Part shown: in pieces, positions 38,774 through 55,256 of the stretch
How the letters are laid out: every line of letters starts with the position of its first letter
Position numbering within the stretch: position 1 is the stretch's first letter
From: Salegentibacter sp. 24
GTDB taxonomy: Bacteria; Bacteroidota; Bacteroidia; Flavobacteriales; Flavobacteriaceae
Direction: 5' to 3'
Assembly: GCF_004362395.1 (NCBI RefSeq)
Contig: NZ_SNWE01000010.1
Span: 1 to 64,000, forward strand
Length of the DNA stretch: 64,000 nucleotides
The notes under the pieces: generated by a model
Seen by the model: the letters and a program-made list of their open reading frames with translations, nothing else
What the model was told of the DNA's origin: nothing
The model's database searches: none
Translations under genes and position numbers: made by a program

Positions 38774-39187
38774 TTAATGTGGCAATTTATTCCTAATCAA
38801 TCCATACAGAAATGTACCAAAAATAGATCCAATAAAGACAATTAAAATCGGTAAAAAACCTGCACCAATTAAGGTGAAAATTGGTCCCGGACATGCACCG
38901 GCCAGCCCCCAGCCTAACCCGAATATAATTCCACCATACATATATCGGCTAAAGCTTTTTTCCTTTGGCACAAATACAATTCGCTGACCGAAGAAAGATC
39001 TCAGTTTTTTTCTTTTTATTAACTGAACACCAATAATCCCTAAAAACAAGGCAGATCCAATAATTCCATACATATGAAAGGAATGAAACTGGAACATTTC
39101 ATAAATCCTGAACCAAGAAGCTGCTTCAGATTTAAACATAACGATCCCAAAAAATATTCCAATCAGTAAATATCCTATACTTCTCAT
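38774..39187 (-). CDS. YeeE/YedE (TsuA-like) half-protein, C-terminal partner
   Basis: The 137-residue protein has four membrane helices with GLGWGLAGACPGPIFTLIG, the Cys-containing motif of YeeE/YedE sulfur transporters. The DUF6691 subgroup encodes this half as a separate gene. It lies 10 bp behind the other half, and together they would rebuild a full-length thiosulfate transporter-like protein. The pair is driven by the operator/promoter at 39778-39821. Confidence 0.85.
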   Translation of the reverse strand: MRSIGYLLIGIFFGIVMFKSEAASWFRIYEMFQFHSFHMYGIIGSALFLGIIGVQLIKRKKLRSFFGQRIVFVPKEKSFSRYMYGGIIFGLGWGLAGACPGPIFTLIGAGFLPILIVFIGSIFGTFLYGLIRNKLPH

Positions 39188-39197
39188 TATTTCAATT

Positions 39198-39755
39198 TTA
39201 AAAAATTATGGGGAATAATAAATGTACCATGATCAAACCTCCGATAAAAAATCCTATTACTGCGATTAAAGAAGGTAACTGCAAGTTGCTAAGCCCGGAA
39301 ATTGCGTGTCCTGAGGTACACCCCCCGGCATAACGGGCACCAAAACCAATTAAGACCCCACCAACAAGAAGAATAATAAGAGCTTTAATTTCCCCTAACG
39401 CATTCCAACTGAATAGTTCAGCAGGCAGGTAAGCTTCCCCTGCGCTCCTAAAACCTAATTTTTCCAAGCTTACTATAGTTTTAGGATTTATTGCTACTGA
39501 TAAATCATAGGTCAACAAATTTGCACCAATAAAACCTCCGATTATAGCTCCAGCAACTACAATTAAGTTCCAGCGTTGCGATTTCCAGTCGAAATCGAAA
39601 AAATCAGCTTTAGAACCAGCACCACACATTGTGCACATTGTCCTAAGATTTGAAGACATTCCAAAACCTTTTCCGATAAAAATGAGTAAAAACATGATTA
39701 TTGCGATCAGGGGACCCGATACATACCAGGGCCAGGGCTCAAAAATCCATTCCAT
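39198..39755 (-). CDS. YeeE/YedE (TsuA-like) half-protein, N-terminal partner
   Basis: The 185-residue protein has about five membrane helices and a conserved Cys motif ARYAGGCTSGHAISGLSNLQ. E. coli YeeE and its relative TsuA import thiosulfate through such cysteines. A second Cys pair (TMCTMCGAG) is also present. The gene is followed at once by its 137-residue partner. The palindrome GTAACAATTGTTAC upstream links it with the persulfide dioxygenase and TauE/SafE loci. Exact substrate (thiosulfate, sulfite or polysulfide sulfur) is inferred. Confidence 0.85.
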   Translation of the reverse strand: MEWIFEPWPWYVSGPLIAIIMFLLIFIGKGFGMSSNLRTMCTMCGAGSKADFFDFDWKSQRWNLIVVAGAIIGGFIGANLLTYDLSVAINPKTIVSLEKLGFRSAGEAYLPAELFSWNALGEIKALIILLVGGVLIGFGARYAGGCTSGHAISGLSNLQLPSLIAVIGFFIGGLIMVHLLFPIIF

Positions 39756-39777: not shown

Positions 39778-39821
39778 CAAATTAAGCAGAATTTACCTGG
39801 GTAGAAAGTAACAATTGTTAC
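39778..39821 (-). promoter_or_regulatory. GTAAC-N4-GTTAC operator plus promoter for the YeeE/YedE pair
   Basis: A perfect palindrome GTAACAATTGTTAC lies at 39808-39821. Its centre is 36.5 bp from the G that ends the -7 box TTAATTTG (39785-39778, one mismatch to TAnnTTTG). There is no -33 TTG; the palindrome takes its place, as expected for a class II activator. Two other copies with identical geometry occur at 47494 and 54604. Confidence 0.75.
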
Positions 39822-45183: not shown

Positions 45184-46530
45184 TTAGTTTGGACTAAATT
45201 CTTTAATCGCTTCACTTAGATCATAAACTTTAGAATTCTTAAATTTATTCTCAAGAATACTACTTCCTGCAGCTGAACGATAGCCTCCTGCACAATGAAC
45301 CATAAAAGGTTTACCTTCTGGTAATTCATCTGCACGGTTTCTAAGCTCATTTAATGGAATTGCTTTGGCATCATCAAATATCTTACCCTCTGCTATCTCA
45401 CTCTGGTTTCTAATATCTACGATAGTATACTTATCTATATTGGCTTTAAAGTCATCCAACTTAAAAATATCTGATGATTTTGAAACTTTTTCAGATAAGG
45501 TAAGCACAGCTCGCATTTGTTTTTCATAACCAATTTTTGCCGTTCTATCCAGTAGTTCATCAAGCTGAGCTACGGTTTCCACGACAAGATAAAATTCCTC
45601 TTCTGGCTCAATAATAGCACCCAGCCAGGTTTCAAACTTATCTCCCTCCGATCGCGCCATTATATTTATACTATTTGCTAAATGTCCTTTTTTATAAATA
45701 TCTCCGTCACGCGTATCCACTATTGTTACGCCCTCTTTATCTATAGCGTCTACATTAAGTTGAATCGGAACGCTATATTTAGCTTTTTGAACATTCAAAG
45801 CACCTTTACGGTTTATTTCCACATTAAATCCGAAATAAGAGGGAATAAAGGGTTGATCTTTAAGAATTTCTTTTACAAATTCCTCTTCGGTTTGTTCTTT
45901 AAATGCCCAGTTTCCCTGCCGTTCATTCCCAAGGGTACTGGAGGAAGCATCACTCATGTTTTTTCCGCAAAGTGAACCTGCTCCGTGAGCCGGATAAATT
46001 AGGGTATCATCTGGTAAGTCATTAAATTTTGTCTTTATCGTTTGATACATTTTTTTTGCTAATTCTATCCGTTTTGCCTTCATATTGCCTGCTTTTTCAC
46101 GTAAATCAGGTCTTCCCACATTTCCAATAAAAAGAGTATCTCCGCTAAACATAACGGTTTCACCATTGTCCTTAGCAATAAAAGTTAAACTATCTGGCGA
46201 ATGTCCTGGGGTATGTATGGGTTTAATACTGGTGGTCCCTATTAGCACTTCATCTCCTTCATCAAAGGATGTACTGGGATAATCTACACCAACTTTCTCA
46301 CTAATATAAATTGCGGCTCCTGTCTCCTGCTGAATTTGTAAATGACCACTTACAAAGTCGGCATGGGGATGCGTCTCAAAAACCGCCACGATCTTTGCAT
46401 TATTTTCTTCAGCAAATTTATAGTATTGCATAGGATTACGACTCGGGTCTACCAATGCCATTTCTCCATTACTAATCAGGGCATAAGAATAATGTGCCAG
46501 AGGTTCGTCCTTAAACTGTTTTATTTTCAT
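45184..46530 (-). CDS. Persulfide dioxygenase-like MBL protein fused to two rhodanese domains
   Basis: The 448-residue protein begins with a metallo-beta-lactamase domain of the ETHE1 type: FETHPHADFVSGH (H54, H56, D58), HTPGHSPDSLTF and SGDTLFIGNVGRPDL, with H-x-H-x-D-F variations typical of persulfide dioxygenases. Two rhodanese-like domains follow. The first (about 265-355) has no catalytic Cys. The second has CAGGYRS (Cys413) and should be active. It would oxidise glutathione- or other persulfides to sulfite while the rhodanese domain handles sulfane sulfur. It is downstream of and overlaps by 20 bp the sterol desaturase gene. Confidence 0.9.
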   Translation of the reverse strand: MKIKQFKDEPLAHYSYALISNGEMALVDPSRNPMQYYKFAEENNAKIVAVFETHPHADFVSGHLQIQQETGAAIYISEKVGVDYPSTSFDEGDEVLIGTTSIKPIHTPGHSPDSLTFIAKDNGETVMFSGDTLFIGNVGRPDLREKAGNMKAKRIELAKKMYQTIKTKFNDLPDDTLIYPAHGAGSLCGKNMSDASSSTLGNERQGNWAFKEQTEEEFVKEILKDQPFIPSYFGFNVEINRKGALNVQKAKYSVPIQLNVDAIDKEGVTIVDTRDGDIYKKGHLANSINIMARSEGDKFETWLGAIIEPEEEFYLVVETVAQLDELLDRTAKIGYEKQMRAVLTLSEKVSKSSDIFKLDDFKANIDKYTIVDIRNQSEIAEGKIFDDAKAIPLNELRNRADELPEGKPFMVHCAGGYRSAAGSSILENKFKNSKVYDLSEAIKEFSPN

Positions 46531-47440
46531 TTTCTGTCTCTTTTAAATTGTAAACTGATTTCTGTTTCTTATTTTTTCTAAACGGAAACACCATTTGATT
46601 TTTAAAGTCTTTTGGAAATTCTTCATCTCCTTTAAAACCTAATTCTAAATTCTTTCCTTCTTGAGGAATATATGCCGTACCGAATAAATAATCCCAAATG
46701 CTAAGGCTGATACCGAAATTCATTCCATAAGGCCTGTTTTCCGGTAAGGCTTTTGAATGATGCCATATATGCATTTTAGGATTATTTAGAAGATATCCGA
46801 AAACACCATAGTTCCAGCCCAGGTTCGCATGATTTAAATGCCCGATGAATACTGTGAACATATGCACCACAAAGAATTCCTGGATTCCAAAGCCAATCAT
46901 AGCCAGGGGTATATACTGTACACTCTTATAAATAATGGTTTCCATAAAATGAAACCTGAACTGTGCGCCAAACCCCATTTCTTTTACGCTATGATGCAAT
47001 TTGTGAAATTCCCAAAGCCATGCCTGTTTGTGCAATTGCCGGTGTACATTCCACTGAATAAAATCTGCTACAATGAACATTATTAGCAGTTGAACCCATA
47101 CTGGAAAATTCTGTACTTCTATAGCCACGATATTTGTGATTTCTAATAAACCGAGAAAATCATTGAACAATTCTACAGCTACGTTAGAGATCGCATTATA
47201 ACCAATCAGGGAAAACAGAAAAAAATTAAATAAAATATAGAATGTATCCAGCCAGAAATCCTTTCGGAAAATCTTCTGATCCCTTCTCCAGGGAATTAGT
47301 ATTTCCAACAACCAAACCAATAGGGACAATCCGATTAGCCAATAAAAATAATTGGTCCACGATGGATTGGTAATTTCGCTAATCAGGTAATTAGAATATC
47401 CGTTAAATGAATCAGCAATTATGTTTAAATACTTTTCCAA
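46511..47440 (-). CDS. Sterol desaturase / fatty acid hydroxylase superfamily protein
   Basis: The 309-residue membrane protein has four or five helices and the three histidine clusters of the superfamily: HRQLHKQ, HKLHHSVKEMG and HLNHANLGW with HIWHHSKALP, which bind a di-iron centre. Such enzymes hydroxylate or desaturate lipids. Its stop overlaps the start of the persulfide dioxygenase gene by 20 bp, so co-translation is likely. The pair has a GTAAC-N4-GTTAC controlled promoter. Substrate is unknown; the genetic link suggests a role in sulfide or redox stress. Confidence 0.87.
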   Translation of the reverse strand: MEKYLNIIADSFNGYSNYLISEITNPSWTNYFYWLIGLSLLVWLLEILIPWRRDQKIFRKDFWLDTFYILFNFFLFSLIGYNAISNVAVELFNDFLGLLEITNIVAIEVQNFPVWVQLLIMFIVADFIQWNVHRQLHKQAWLWEFHKLHHSVKEMGFGAQFRFHFMETIIYKSVQYIPLAMIGFGIQEFFVVHMFTVFIGHLNHANLGWNYGVFGYLLNNPKMHIWHHSKALPENRPYGMNFGISLSIWDYLFGTAYIPQEGKNLELGFKGDEEFPKDFKNQMVFPFRKNKKQKSVYNLKETENENKTV

Positions 47441-47463: not shown

Positions 47464-47507
47464 CAAAAATATAATAATCCTGCACTTTGGGAAGTAACCT
47501 TTGTTAC
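47464..47507 (-). promoter_or_regulatory. GTAAC-N4-GTTAC operator plus promoter for sterol desaturase-persulfide dioxygenase
   Basis: The palindrome (GTAACAAAGGTTAC on the minus strand) lies at 47494-47507. Its centre is 36.5 bp from the last base of the -7 box TATTTTTG (47471-47464). No -33 TTG is present. Geometry is identical to the copies at 39808 and 54604. Confidence 0.8.
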
Positions 47508-50836: not shown

Positions 50837-51874
50837 TTATTCATACTCTTTTTCGTTTTTCTCCAGAACCTTAATCATATTAAACGATTTCATTAAATGA
50901 AATAGTCCCGGTAAAATTATAAACCCACCAATAAGTAACATTATTGCCAAATTGCTTATAGTAGCCTCAGGTGCTATATTTTTTAAAAGACTTATTTCCT
51001 CCTGTGCAGTAATTATAATATAGGGAAAGTGGGCATACAGAGCTGCAAAGAGTATTAACACAACCTGAAAACCGGCAAGATACCTACTGGCAATTCTATA
51101 TTCTTTTTTAATAAATTTCCAAAGCGGAATTAGAAGTATCCCTGATAAACCTACACAGAACAGGGAAACGGGGTTATGAATAAAATCTATGGCAAATTTA
51201 ATATCATTGAAATACCCATAACTGATAAGAAGAAAACCCAAGCCTACTAATACAATGGTGAAAAACGCTGAATTTTTAGCATAATGTTTTCTGGCTTTTC
51301 CCTCAGCTTCCCCAATTAAAAGTGTGGACGCTAAAAATGCACATAATGCAGCATAAAACAAACCGACTAGCAAACTAAAAAGATTCAGCCAGTGCTGCAT
51401 AAAAAGGTCGAAGAACCCGTAATTTTCATAATCTTCGGTGATGATTATTTCTCCGCCAATTAAGGCTCCGAAAGACATTCCAAGAAATATAGGAGTTACA
51501 AAACTTCCTATTCTAAAAAGCCAGTTATACCAAAATTGAGACTTGTCGAAAACTGCGTCATAATGGCGAAAAACAAAGGCAACACCCCTTAGGGTAATTC
51601 CCAGTAATACCAAACTTAGAGGAATATGCAGGTATATAATCAATACGTTAAAATAGCCGGGGAAAGCCACCCACAAAATTACCAACATGATAATAAGCCA
51701 AATATGATTTGCCTCCCAAATTGGTCCCATAACGCGATAAATTGTGTCCCGGGTATATTCTTTATTCCTGGTTGAAGAAAACAATTCAACTATTCCAGCA
51801 CCAAAATCTGCACCACCCAGAAGCACATACAATAAAAGAGAAAATAACAGAAAAAACAGAACGATATAAAGCAT
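50837..51874 (-). CDS. cydB: Cytochrome bd ubiquinol oxidase subunit II
   Basis: The 345-residue protein has eight or nine membrane helices and the CydB opening LYIVLFFLLFSLLLYVLLGG followed by ADFGAGIVEL and PIWEANHIWLI. It forms the quinol oxidase with CydA. Bd oxidase has high oxygen affinity and resists sulfide and NO. It follows cydA by 61 bp. Confidence 0.95.
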   Translation of the reverse strand: MLYIVLFFLLFSLLLYVLLGGADFGAGIVELFSSTRNKEYTRDTIYRVMGPIWEANHIWLIIMLVILWVAFPGYFNVLIIYLHIPLSLVLLGITLRGVAFVFRHYDAVFDKSQFWYNWLFRIGSFVTPIFLGMSFGALIGGEIIITEDYENYGFFDLFMQHWLNLFSLLVGLFYAALCAFLASTLLIGEAEGKARKHYAKNSAFFTIVLVGLGFLLISYGYFNDIKFAIDFIHNPVSLFCVGLSGILLIPLWKFIKKEYRIASRYLAGFQVVLILFAALYAHFPYIIITAQEEISLLKNIAPEATISNLAIMLLIGGFIILPGLFHLMKSFNMIKVLEKNEKEYE

Positions 51875-51935
51875 AATTAATCTTGGATTTTATATTACAA
51901 GCCTTGTGAGGATAAAACTTATTTTTCACTCAAAC

Positions 51936-53252
51936 TTATGTATCCTTGTCCTCAGTAGGTTGATTTAGAGATTTTATTTGACGGTTCATTAACCAGGTTA
52001 CAGTTATGGCTAAAACCGTATAGAGAAATAAATAATAAAAAAAACTGTACTTCATTCCCGGCATTGGTGTCACAGCATCTTCGGTTCTCATAATCTGATG
52101 GATAATCCAGGGTTGTCTTCCAACTTCCGTTACAACCCAGCCAGCTTCTATGGCTACAAAACCAAGTGGAGCGACTACAATAAATAACAGCCAGTAATAT
52201 TTACTTTTTAGCCAACTTTTCTTCTTTAAACTTATAAAATAAATTAAACCTGCAAACATTAATAAAGTGCCTAAGCCTACCATAATTTGAAATGCATAAT
52301 GCACAATGGCTACCGGAGGTAATTCATCGTCCGGAAAATCGTTGAGCCCTTTGACCTTTGCATTAAAATCGCCAAAAGCCAAAAAAGATAAGGCTTTAGG
52401 GACCTCGAGTTTATAGGAAACGGTCCGGTTTTCTTCATCTACAATTCCACCAATGTAAAGCGGGGCACCTTTTTGAGTTTCGTAATGAGCTTCCATAGCA
52501 GCGAGTTTTACCGGTTGGCGCTCCGCCACATCCTTTGCTGAAAGATCACCGCTAATGGGTTGTAAAAAAGCAGTAACGGCTCCAAAAACAATAGCGATTT
52601 TAAATGCTTTGGTGTGCAATGCTACATTTCTTCCACGAAAAATTTGGAAAGCGTGAATTCCGGCCACTCCAAAACTAGTTGCAATAAAAGCGGCTAAAGT
52701 CATATGTAATGCTTGTGTAAACCAGGCCGGATTTAAAAATGCCGCAACAGGATCTATGTTGGTAAATTCACCATTTATATAATCAAAACCAGAGGGTGCA
52801 TTCATCCAACCATTGGCCGAAACCACCAGAATTCCGGAAGCTACTCCAGCAATACCAATTATTACGCCGGTGAACCAGTGAAATTTTTCCGGAAGTTTAT
52901 TCCATCCGTAAAGATAAAAACCAAGAGCGATGGCTTCTACAAAAAATGCTGCACCTTCCAGGGAAAACGGCATCCCAATAATGGGCCCGGCGTGTTTCAT
53001 AAATTCAGGCCAAAGCATTCCCAGTTCAAAGGAAAGTGCGGTACCTGAAACAGCACCAGTCACAAAAAAAATAGCCACTCCTTTTAACCAGGCCATGGTT
53101 AATCTTTTATAGATAGGGTTTCGGGTTTTTAGCCATTTATGGTGGGAGACTACCATAAAAAAAGGCATTACCATTCCTATACAAGCAAAAATGATATGAA
53201 AACCTAAGGTAAAGGCCATTTGCAGGCGTGCGTAATCTAAATTCTCCATCAT
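51936..53252 (-). CDS. cydA: Cytochrome bd ubiquinol oxidase subunit I
   Basis: The 438-residue protein has the CydA opening NLDYARLQMAFTLGFHIIFA (heme ligand His19), GRQPWIIHQIMRTEDAVTPM and a short quinol-binding Q loop, as in the short-Q-loop class of Bacteroidota and Firmicutes. It binds hemes b558, b595 and d. Two adjacent ATGs (53252 and 53249) start it. The upstream 503 bp hold no recognised operator of the GTAAC type. It is first in the unit cydA-cydB-MBL-methyltransferase. Confidence 0.95.
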   Translation of the reverse strand: MMENLDYARLQMAFTLGFHIIFACIGMVMPFFMVVSHHKWLKTRNPIYKRLTMAWLKGVAIFFVTGAVSGTALSFELGMLWPEFMKHAGPIIGMPFSLEGAAFFVEAIALGFYLYGWNKLPEKFHWFTGVIIGIAGVASGILVVSANGWMNAPSGFDYINGEFTNIDPVAAFLNPAWFTQALHMTLAAFIATSFGVAGIHAFQIFRGRNVALHTKAFKIAIVFGAVTAFLQPISGDLSAKDVAERQPVKLAAMEAHYETQKGAPLYIGGIVDEENRTVSYKLEVPKALSFLAFGDFNAKVKGLNDFPDDELPPVAIVHYAFQIMVGLGTLLMFAGLIYFISLKKKSWLKSKYYWLLFIVVAPLGFVAIEAGWVVTEVGRQPWIIHQIMRTEDAVTPMPGMKYSFFYYLFLYTVLAITVTWLMNRQIKSLNQPTEDKDT

Positions 53253-53755: not shown

Positions 53756-54553
53756 CTATGAAATTTCAGCATAGACGATGTAGATTCCCATTAAAAGTAC
53801 GAACCAGCCAAAACCCTTTTTTAGTTTTTTTCCGTCTATAAATTTATTTAGGTAAATCCCTATAAACATACCAATGATGGAAAGACCGGTGAAAATGCAT
53901 AAAAATACCCAATTGATATCCATATTTTGAATATCGCCTATAAAACCGATCAAGGATTTAAGTGCAATAATCAATAAAGAGGTTGCTACTGCTTTTTTCA
54001 TAGGGAGCTTTGCCAGTAGCACCAGGGCAGGAATAATTAGAAATCCTCCACCTGCACCTACAATTCCAGTAAGGATACCAACTACAATTCCTTCAACAAT
54101 AATCAGTGGATAATTATAACGTATCTCTAGGGTTTCAGTATTTTTCTTACCATTCTCCTTTATCATAGAGATCGATGCCAGGATCATTATAATGGCAAAA
54201 AAAAGCATAATCCCAATATTCTTGGTGATTTCAAAATTACCAATATTGAAAAGAGACTCGGGGATTGCTGGCACCATCCATTTTCTTGTGGCATACACTG
54301 CAATAAAGGCCGGAATTGAAAATACAATTGCCGTTCTAAAATCAACAAGTTTCTTTTGCATATTTTTAGCTGCACCTACCAGAGCTGAAGCACCTACCAC
54401 AAAAAGAGAATATGCGGTAGCCGTAACAGGATTAATAGCCAGTAAATACACCAATACGGGAACGGTTAATATAGAACCGCCACCACCAATAAGTCCCAGA
54501 ACAACACCAATTATCAATGCTCCAAAATAACCTAGTAAGTCTAATACTTCCAT
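53756..54553 (-). CDS. TauE/SafE-family sulfite/anion exporter
   Basis: The 265-residue protein has seven or eight membrane helices with repeated TauE/SafE motifs: GVVLGLIGGGGSILTVPVLV and GILTGIVGAGGGFLIIPALV. The family exports sulfite, sulfoacetate or other organosulfur anions. It is transcribed from a GTAAC-N4-GTTAC-controlled promoter placed just behind the crp/fnr-type gene. With the persulfide dioxygenase (which makes sulfite) this suggests sulfite disposal. Confidence 0.9.
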   Translation of the reverse strand: MEVLDLLGYFGALIIGVVLGLIGGGGSILTVPVLVYLLAINPVTATAYSLFVVGASALVGAAKNMQKKLVDFRTAIVFSIPAFIAVYATRKWMVPAIPESLFNIGNFEITKNIGIMLFFAIIMILASISMIKENGKKNTETLEIRYNYPLIIVEGIVVGILTGIVGAGGGFLIIPALVLLAKLPMKKAVATSLLIIALKSLIGFIGDIQNMDINWVFLCIFTGLSIIGMFIGIYLNKFIDGKKLKKGFGWFVLLMGIYIVYAEIS

Positions 54554-54573: not shown

Positions 54574-54617
54574 CAAAAATAGAGGCTAAATGAGCATTCT
54601 ACAGTAACAAGGGTTAC
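54574..54617 (-). promoter_or_regulatory. GTAAC-N4-GTTAC operator plus promoter for TauE/SafE
   Basis: GTAACAAGGGTTAC lies at 54604-54617 with its centre 36.5 bp from the end of the -7 box TATTTTTG (54581-54574). It is 7 bp from the stop codon of the crp/fnr-type gene. No -33 TTG. It is the third copy with identical geometry. Confidence 0.8.
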
Positions 54618-54623
54618 ACAGAC

Positions 54624-55256
54624 TCAAAGTTCAGTAACTTCAATACTATTTCGCTGAAGTTTTATTTTCCCGTCCAATTCCAGTTTTTTTAATAATCTGG
54701 AGATAACCACCCGAGAAGTATGCAAATCATAAGCGATTTGCTGATGGGTAACTGCAATTGTTTCATTCTGATTGACCTTAGCTTTATCTTGAAGATATTT
54801 CATTAAACGTTGGTCCATATTCATAAACGCAATGGTATCTATGGTATCGAGCATTTCTGAAAGACGGGTATGATAACTTTCAAAAACAAAATTGCGCCAG
54901 GATTTATATTTGGAAGTCCATTCTTCCATCTTTTCAATAGGAATCATAATTATTTTGGTATCGCGTTCAGCTACAGCCCTAATTTCACTCTTAGTCTGGC
55001 CTAGACAACAGGAAAGCGTCATGGCACAGGTGTCGCCACGCTCCAAAAAATACAATAAAAGTTCATCCCCATCTTTATCTTCCCGCATAATTTTAATAGC
55101 TCCTTCAAGCAACAAAGGCATCATCTTTACGTAATCCCCAATTTCAATTATTGTTTCACCGGCACCGACAAACTGAAGATTGCCCACCTGATTAATTTCA
55201 CTAAGAAGTTCATCTTCAAATATAAATCCGTAGGCTTCTTCTAACTGCTGTAACAT
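54624..55256 (-). CDS. Crp/Fnr-family transcription regulator with Cys cluster
   Basis: The 210-residue protein has a cyclic-nucleotide-fold sensor domain (about 20-120), a dimer helix (about 120-145) and a C-terminal winged helix with the HTH THQQIAYDLHTSRVVISRLL (170-189). Ser186-Arg187 match the FNR Ser-Arg pair that contacts DNA, while the FNR Glu position is Val183. It lacks the four N-terminal FNR cysteines. Instead Cys77, Cys83 and Cys84 (GDTCAMTLSCCLG) lie where ligands bind in CRP, suggesting thiol or persulfide sensing. It is likely to bind the nearby GTAAC-N4-GTTAC sites. Regulator call firm; ligand and targets inferred. Confidence 0.88.
   Translation of the reverse strand: MLQQLEEAYGFIFEDELLSEINQVGNLQFVGAGETIIEIGDYVKMMPLLLEGAIKIMREDKDGDELLLYFLERGDTCAMTLSCCLGQTKSEIRAVAERDTKIIMIPIEKMEEWTSKYKSWRNFVFESYHTRLSEMLDTIDTIAFMNMDQRLMKYLQDKAKVNQNETIAVTHQQIAYDLHTSRVVISRLLKKLELDGKIKLQRNSIEVTEL

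Follow-up and report, generated by a model that had tools for sequence, protein, structure and literature searches.

The window (the whole stretch of DNA that was analysed, 64,000 nucleotides from Salegentibacter sp. 24) contains three copies of the perfect palindrome GTAAC-N4-GTTAC, each with a -7 box and a sulfur-related gene or operon behind it, and a gene for a Crp/Fnr-family regulator that adjoins one of them. The features are listed below, with scores from an operator profile that was trained on sites of relatives.

38774..39187, minus strand: second YeeE/YedE-like protein (DUF6691/Sulf_transp; Pfam PF20398 and PF04143)
39198..39755, minus strand: YeeE/YedE family (Sulf_transp) protein (Pfam PF04143)
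39778..39785, minus strand: -7 box TTAATTTG, 22 bp from operator; predicted start site about 39773
39808..39821, minus strand: operator GTAACAATTGTTAC, upstream of the YeeE/YedE pair; profile score 31.2
45184..46530, minus strand: metallo-beta-lactamase-rhodanese protein, probable persulfide dioxygenase (PDO; activity inferred; Pfam PF00753 and PF00581)
46511..47440, minus strand: fatty-acid hydroxylase/sterol desaturase family protein (Pfam PF04116)
47464..47471, minus strand: -7 box TATTTTTG, 22 bp from operator; predicted start site about 47459
47494..47507, minus strand: operator GTAACAAAGGTTAC, upstream of the fatty-acid-hydroxylase/persulfide-dioxygenase operon; profile score 35.7
53756..54553, minus strand: TauE/SafE family exporter, putative target gene (Pfam PF01925, E 9e-45)
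54574..54581, minus strand: -7 box TATTTTTG, 22 bp from operator; predicted start site about 54569
54604..54617, minus strand: operator GTAACCCTTGTTAC, upstream of TauE; profile score 39.9
54624..55256, minus strand: Crp/Fnr-family regulator, proposed binder (Pfam PF00027 and PF13545; Cys77, Cys83 and Cys84; helix HTSRVVISR)

Proposed operators and predicted promoters in Salegentibacter sp. 24

All three palindromes were found where the sequence-only reading had placed them, and its figure of 36.5 bp from palindrome centre to the end of the -7 box held at each site, with 22 nt in between on the minus strand. Its judgement that chance was an unlikely source was borne out by 100 dinucleotide shuffles, which produced 0.02 palindromes on average, one at most and never three. 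The same reading had put the palindrome near -42 to -44, in class II activator geometry. In a start-site map of F. psychrophilum, the TAnnTTTG box spans -12 to -5 (PMC9723704); together with the 22-nt gap, this places the palindrome centre at -41.5, so that the geometry stands and the position is amended. The class II criterion, an operator near -41.5 at constant spacing, is thus met, within a start-site frame taken from another flavobacterium. The missing -33 TTG was also confirmed, at the three window sites and in most relatives, but it is weak evidence by itself because most control boxes lack a TTG too: one starts 19-22 nt upstream of the -7 box at 4 of 178 operator sites versus 16 of 232 control boxes, in a comparison that covered only part of the -33 region. 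The cytochrome bd operon of the window (50837-53252) lies between TauE and the PDO operon, and no operator-profile match was found there.

The whole genome (4.15 Mb in 61 contigs) was scanned for the perfect palindrome, and sites outside any ORF of more than 75 aa were taken as intergenic. Thirteen copies were found, versus 8 for the reversed-pattern control. Seven are intergenic, and all seven fall in two sulfur-gene islands, three on contig C10, which is that of the window, and four on contig C4 that lie within 10 kb of one another (130403, 131280, 136688 and 139949). A -7 box or near-match lies exactly 22 bp behind every one of them, scoring 6/6 in three cases (TAAGTTTG, TATTTTTG and again TATTTTTG), 5/6 in three (TTAATTTG, TATCTTTA and CAATTTTG) and 4/6 in one (GAATTTCG). 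The other six palindromes lie inside ORFs of 243-802 aa, without TAnnTTTG at the operator-box distance.

The C4 island encodes a second TauE, a second metallo-beta-lactamase-rhodanese protein, a rhodanese and a second YeeE pair. Its site at 139949 is adjoined, in opposite orientation, by a degenerate eighth site, GTAACATTAGTCAC with box TATCTTTG, which is one of the two occurrences of GTAAC-N4-GTCAC in the genome; behind it lie an ORF without an assigned family, a DoxX protein and a SoxB-like phosphoesterase. The eight sites of both islands scored 24 to 40 with the operator profile, and the best score in the reversed window was 4.9. A reverse-transcriptase-like ORF (L015:704-2101), of group II intron type as judged by eye, lies directly upstream of the second TauE operator, and the C4 island may for this reason have been mobile once.

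Conservation of the proposed operator and its predicted target genes

Of 120 genomes sampled from the family, 103 contain a relative of the regulator (E ≤ 1e-20); across the phylum, a profile search (E ≤ 1e-25) detected relatives in 99 of 247 sampled genomes. Three sets of loci were examined. The named set consisted of 80 loci around the regulator, each at most 20.6 kb and together the best 80 of 560 confirmed stretches, and includes Salegentibacter, Salinimicrobium, Christiangramia, Gillisia, Aequorivita, Olleya, Dokdonia, Aquimarina and others. The smaller set, which overlaps with it in genera, comprised 30 loci, each about 3.6 kb long: that of the window and those of the 29 relatives that were nearest among the other genomes sampled. 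The distant set was made up of 100 loci, from 6.7 to 19.9 kb in length, around less closely related regulators.

In the named set, 196 palindromes were present in 77 of the 80 loci, with no perfect palindrome in the other three. When the half-site was permuted, the best of 59 other patterns gave 7 sites versus 196, and spacer lengths of 0-12 other than 4 gave at most 2. Where TAnnTTTG occurred within 108 nt on either side of a palindrome, it ended exactly 30 nt away in 103 of 132 cases. A box of at least 5/6 stood at the fixed distance at 178 of the 196 sites, and 68 other offsets gave a mean of 5.3 boxed sites and a maximum of 15. The smaller set held 43 palindromes, with 23 of 29 boxes at offset 30; the palindrome accompanied 24 of the 29 nearest relatives, and for five no perfect copy was found within 1.5 kb of the regulator. 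The enrichment before -7 boxes that had been predicted for the genome and its relatives was therefore upheld. Orthologous promoters, whose lack of the palindrome would have counted against the earlier proposal, gave a divided answer: close relatives retain it, as above, but among the 100 distant loci only 41 contain a boxed match to GT[AG]AC-N4-GT[CT]AC (24 of 58 loci with valine at the helix residue described below, 16 of 40 with glutamate and 1 of 2 with both), and many TauE, YeeE and PDO promoters of the distant loci are without one. Among relatives of Salegentibacter sp. 24, the finding is real.

Palindrome number tells a different story from palindrome placement. Across the 120 family genomes, the raw count was above that of the reversed-pattern control in 36, equal in 7 and below in 77, and since raw counts do not exceed the control, the count alone is no evidence. 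What stands above chance is the palindrome together with a box at one spacing, not the number of palindromes.

At the 178 boxed sites, the palindrome is preceded by T in 89% and followed by T (65%) and then G (63%); from this unequal preference, the operator appears to be slightly asymmetric. One branch (L206, L207, L208, L211, L214, L217, L240 and L244) has GTAAC-N4-ATTAC upstream of YeeE, the degenerate half being the one nearer the -7 box, and several of its PDO operators have G at the fifth base from the centre. At another locus (L293; G031:C20:178882 and 179068), two palindromes lie 186 bp apart before a TolC-like gene; one is boxed, and the unboxed copy is possibly a second upstream site.

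Target families were assigned by Pfam matches of representatives. The tally comprised 196 oriented site-to-gene assignments with a box of at least 4/6, drawn from the 80 loci, the window and L015; palindromes with boxes on both sides were counted twice, and 19 further oriented sites without an ORF were dropped. The first genes were PDO-like (54), TauE (51), YeeE (22), SQR-like (12), fatty-acid hydroxylase (10), the regulator itself (10), cytochrome c protein (7) and peroxiredoxin (6), followed by smaller groups. SQR, SoxB and SorA were the best NCBIfam matches of three representatives, all of them under the curated cut-offs, and the SorA-like gene has a box of only 4/6.

Because the 80-locus sample is centred on the regulator, all palindromes of four other whole genomes were also taken; these genomes were chosen for their many palindromes (11-15) and not at random. 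Their 51 palindromes comprised 30 with a box of at least 5/6, 7 at 4/6 and 14 below, 8 of the last group lying inside ORFs of at least 170 aa. By profile searches, 18 of the 30 boxed sites precede PDO/rhodanese, TauE, YeeE, SQR or fatty-acid hydroxylase genes, rising to 24 when cytochrome bd, peroxiredoxin and the regulator (two each) are included. Of the remaining six, two stand before TolC-like genes and one each before genes for an HMA protein, a SoxA/TsdA-domain cytochrome, a cyclase-domain protein and a protein without family; some boxed sites, such as those before the TolC-like, HMA-domain and cyclase-domain genes, thus have no clear sulfur link. The proposed placement before sulfur genes was nonetheless sustained, with the same kinds of target recurring in the whole-genome lists of five genomes. 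Boxed sites were also observed at cydA in L128 and L274 (by Pfam) and in L283 (judged by its start, which is like that of L128). In a genome of the same genus, a gene for a protein with a PF00211 adenylate/guanylate cyclase domain (L261:260-1384) has a perfect operator and a 6/6 box, from which a cyclic-nucleotide enzyme may be part of the regulon.

The regulator and its comparison with known systems

The protein encoded at 54624-55256 meets the criterion for membership of the Crp/Fnr superfamily, with matches to PF00027 (E 9.8e-11) and PF13545 (E 2.4e-8) that are both above cut-off. Its structure model has a pLDDT of 88.8, and the fold matches CRP, NtcA and HcpR at TM-scores of about 0.5-0.65. 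A search of the genome gave a single close Crp/Fnr relative, which adjoins an operator; the other Crp/Fnr-like match, on contig C6, is distant (23% identity, E 6e-4). With a close relative defined by a best E below 1e-45, the 120 genomes contained 1.97 palindromes/Mb where a close relative was present (95 genomes), 0.77 where there was none (17 genomes) and 0.69 where there was a distant one only (8 genomes). The difference between the 95 genomes and the other 25 was clear (Mann-Whitney p 2e-10), and the control pattern also differed, more weakly (p 0.02). The suggestion that the neighbouring Crp/Fnr gene encodes the binder is supported by this density and by the tracking of operator base with recognition helix; binding itself is unproven.

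That tracking concerns residue 183, which follows the helix arginine and is valine in 58 distant loci and glutamate in 40, two loci with both being excluded. At the fifth base from the centre, boxed operators of the valine loci were AA in 21 cases and contained G in 8, versus AA in 1 and G in 16 (11 with one G, 5 with two) for the glutamate loci (Fisher 1e-5). The 74 valine loci of the named set gave 177 AA sites and 15 with one G. On a regulator tree of 49 loci, built with the helix columns masked, operators were mostly G-bearing in 16 of 16 glutamate loci and 7 of 33 valine loci. Four valine/glutamate changes are needed on this tree, but there are no more than 2 to 4 independent pairs; over 200 random pairings, 1.9 of 2 independent pairs on average went in the same direction and none in the opposite one. 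With so few independent switches, the covariation cannot reach significance after descent is taken into account. In E. coli CRP, a glutamate at the equivalent helix position contacts a G:C pair, which fits the association of the glutamate helix with G operators. A bias of the operator base towards A or G by valine or glutamate at this one residue is a hypothesis.

The regulator has only three cysteines, in the arrangement C77-x5-C83-C84 (motif GDTCAMTLSCC). All 30 aligned close relatives, among them the window protein, have both C77 and C83. C77 is present in 185 of the 186 relatives found in 180 loci, with C83 and C84 in fewer. One criterion for a reactive-sulfur sensor, a conserved cysteine or cysteine pair, is therefore met. 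C83 is absent from 48 of the 100 distant loci, some of which have a full sulfur neighbourhood. Sulfur neighbours were seen at 38 of 52 loci with C83 versus 18 of 48 without, an association that is confounded by descent and includes some weak PDO-profile matches of 55-85 bits. The case for C83 as an obligatory part of a sensor is weakened by several loci that have PDO, TauE and YeeE neighbours without it. By eye, C77 aligns with the loop of CRP in which the cAMP phosphate is bound.

NtcA is described as a class II activator that binds GTAN8TAC centred at about -41.5, and for one of its sites a distance of 22 nt to the -10 box is reported (PMC3898017). GTAAC-N4-GTTAC is a special case of GTAN8TAC, and an NtcA-type operator, GTAN8TAC about 22 nt from the -10 element, is present by those figures (PMC3898017). 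NtcA is also the second-best PDB sequence match and likewise has a valine after the helix arginine (strvtvtr in the alignment). The regulator differs from it in its sulfur rather than nitrogen targets, its effector-domain cysteines and the Bacteroidota -7 box TAnnTTTG, and it does not meet the NtcA equivalog model (46.8 bits versus a curated cut-off of 244.95). E. coli FNR and CRP share the Crp/Fnr fold and the class II position but have other operator sequences, and the CRP equivalog model is not met either (52.9 bits versus 266). FNR has operator lengths of 5-4-5 and four cysteines that ligate an iron-sulfur cluster. The likeness to FNR sites that had been remarked upon extends to the half-site lengths only, as the operator sequence follows the NtcA pattern (GTA-N8-TAC) and the four-cysteine set is absent; with three cysteines only, FNR-like iron-sulfur sensing is not favoured. 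The best PDB match (E 6e-18) was 3dv8, which is annotated only as a putative Crp/Fnr regulator and has cysteines aligned to C77 and C83, suggesting that the cysteine-bearing type is wider. Its source, Eubacterium rectale, lies outside the Bacteroidota.

Mode of action, signal and significance

We favour, with a probability of roughly 0.8, a sulfur-handling regulon under a class II Crp/Fnr activator as the overall explanation. The palindrome would be the operator of the protein encoded at 54624-55256, a dimer of which would bind GTAAC-N4-GTTAC centred at -41.5 and activate sigma-A promoters that have a -7 box, the operator covering the -33 region as with NtcA. The main predicted targets are persulfide dioxygenase/rhodanese, TauE, YeeE, SQR, the fatty-acid hydroxylase in an operon with the dioxygenase and, often, the regulator; in some genomes, cytochrome bd and peroxiredoxin may be added. 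Reactive sulfur might be sensed through Cys77, with the help of Cys83/84 where present, in the place of CRP's cAMP-phosphate loop. The fixed geometry, the target set, the conservation among relatives and the adjacency of the regulator can be read from the DNA as such. Binding by this protein together with class II activation is inferred, there being no binding, start-site or induction data, and we hold it to be highly probable.

Chance palindromes in AT-rich DNA would account for raw counts that, in 84 of 120 genomes, do not rise above those of the reversed pattern, but not for the failure of permuted half-sites, other spacers and other offsets to give comparable numbers, nor for the gap between the reversed window (4.9 or less) and the island sites (24 to 40) with a profile trained on relatives; we regard a chance origin as excluded by these controls. 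Use of the palindrome by another DNA-binding protein, with the neighbouring Crp/Fnr gene a bystander, is conceivable given the distant Crp/Fnr-like match on C6. Palindrome density follows close relatives of the neighbouring regulator, however, helix residue 183 tracks the operator base, and 10 sites stand before the regulator gene itself, which together make a different binder very improbable. A repressor whose site overlaps the -33 region, and whose release under sulfur stress would free the genes for transcription in the manner of CstR, SqrR and BigR, has in its favour that most reactive-sulfur regulators named in the available part of a review are repressors (PMC9774590). We consider it unlikely, because a repressor needs no single exact spacing: the base-exact distance at 178 of 196 sites is explained by contact between an activator and RNA polymerase and not by steric repression. 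The TTG is also very rare in the examined part of the -33 region, where control boxes are not rich in it either.

The nature of the signal is much less settled than class II activation by the regulator. Thiol sensing of reactive sulfur is suggested by the near-universal Cys77 and by the target set, and persulfide or polysulfide as the signal is an inference to which we give about even odds, as redox, nitric oxide or another ligand is not excluded. The same regulator could act from the same class II position as a respiratory switch that responds to oxygen or redox state, nitric oxide or a small ligand, which we regard as quite possible, though less likely than not. In some genomes, sites stand before cytochrome bd and peroxiredoxin genes, Cys77 is present also without C83 and without sulfur neighbours, and a Crp/Fnr protein of P. 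gingivalis, PgRsp, has been described as redox-sensing and heme-binding (PMC6955866). Against this, sulfur-specific targets dominate (149 of 196 near regulators and 18 of 30 in the four genomes), and three cysteines in one motif are not the set of four found in FNR.

CstR, SqrR, BigR and FisR belong to other families (CsoR, ArsR and Fis). They resemble the present system in that they control sulfide/persulfide genes through cysteine thiols (PMC9774590). The reactive-sulfur sensors named in that review include CstR, SqrR, BigR, PigS and FisR, and "Crp" occurs in it only twice, both times in the reference list (PMC9774590). A Crp of A. baumannii is reported to be persulfidated, with unknown effect (PMC7315123). 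We put forward only tentatively, at slightly less than even odds, that a Bacteroidota-wide Crp/Fnr branch is a thiol-based reactive-sulfur sensor in which Cys77, often with Cys83/84, would switch a class II activator of sulfide/persulfide oxidation, and in which the Val/Glu helix residue would bias the operator base to A or G.

A class II Crp/Fnr activator is of a known kind, and the sulfur regulon itself is apparently undescribed: a full-text literature search, which did not cover regulon databases such as RegPrecise, found no prior description of it. Flavobacteria are major heterotrophs. No account of the control of their sulfide, persulfide and thiosulfate genes was found in the literature searched. 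The present analysis supplies a regulator, operator geometry at base level, a predicted regulon readable in related genomes, predicted start sites and a one-residue specificity hypothesis. If the thiol-sensor reading is correct, the protein would be the first Crp/Fnr-type persulfide-responsive activator known to us, and if Cys77 does sense persulfide, that would be a new signal for the Crp/Fnr superfamily. The palindrome looks like the mark of a widespread sulfur-response switch in related bacteria.
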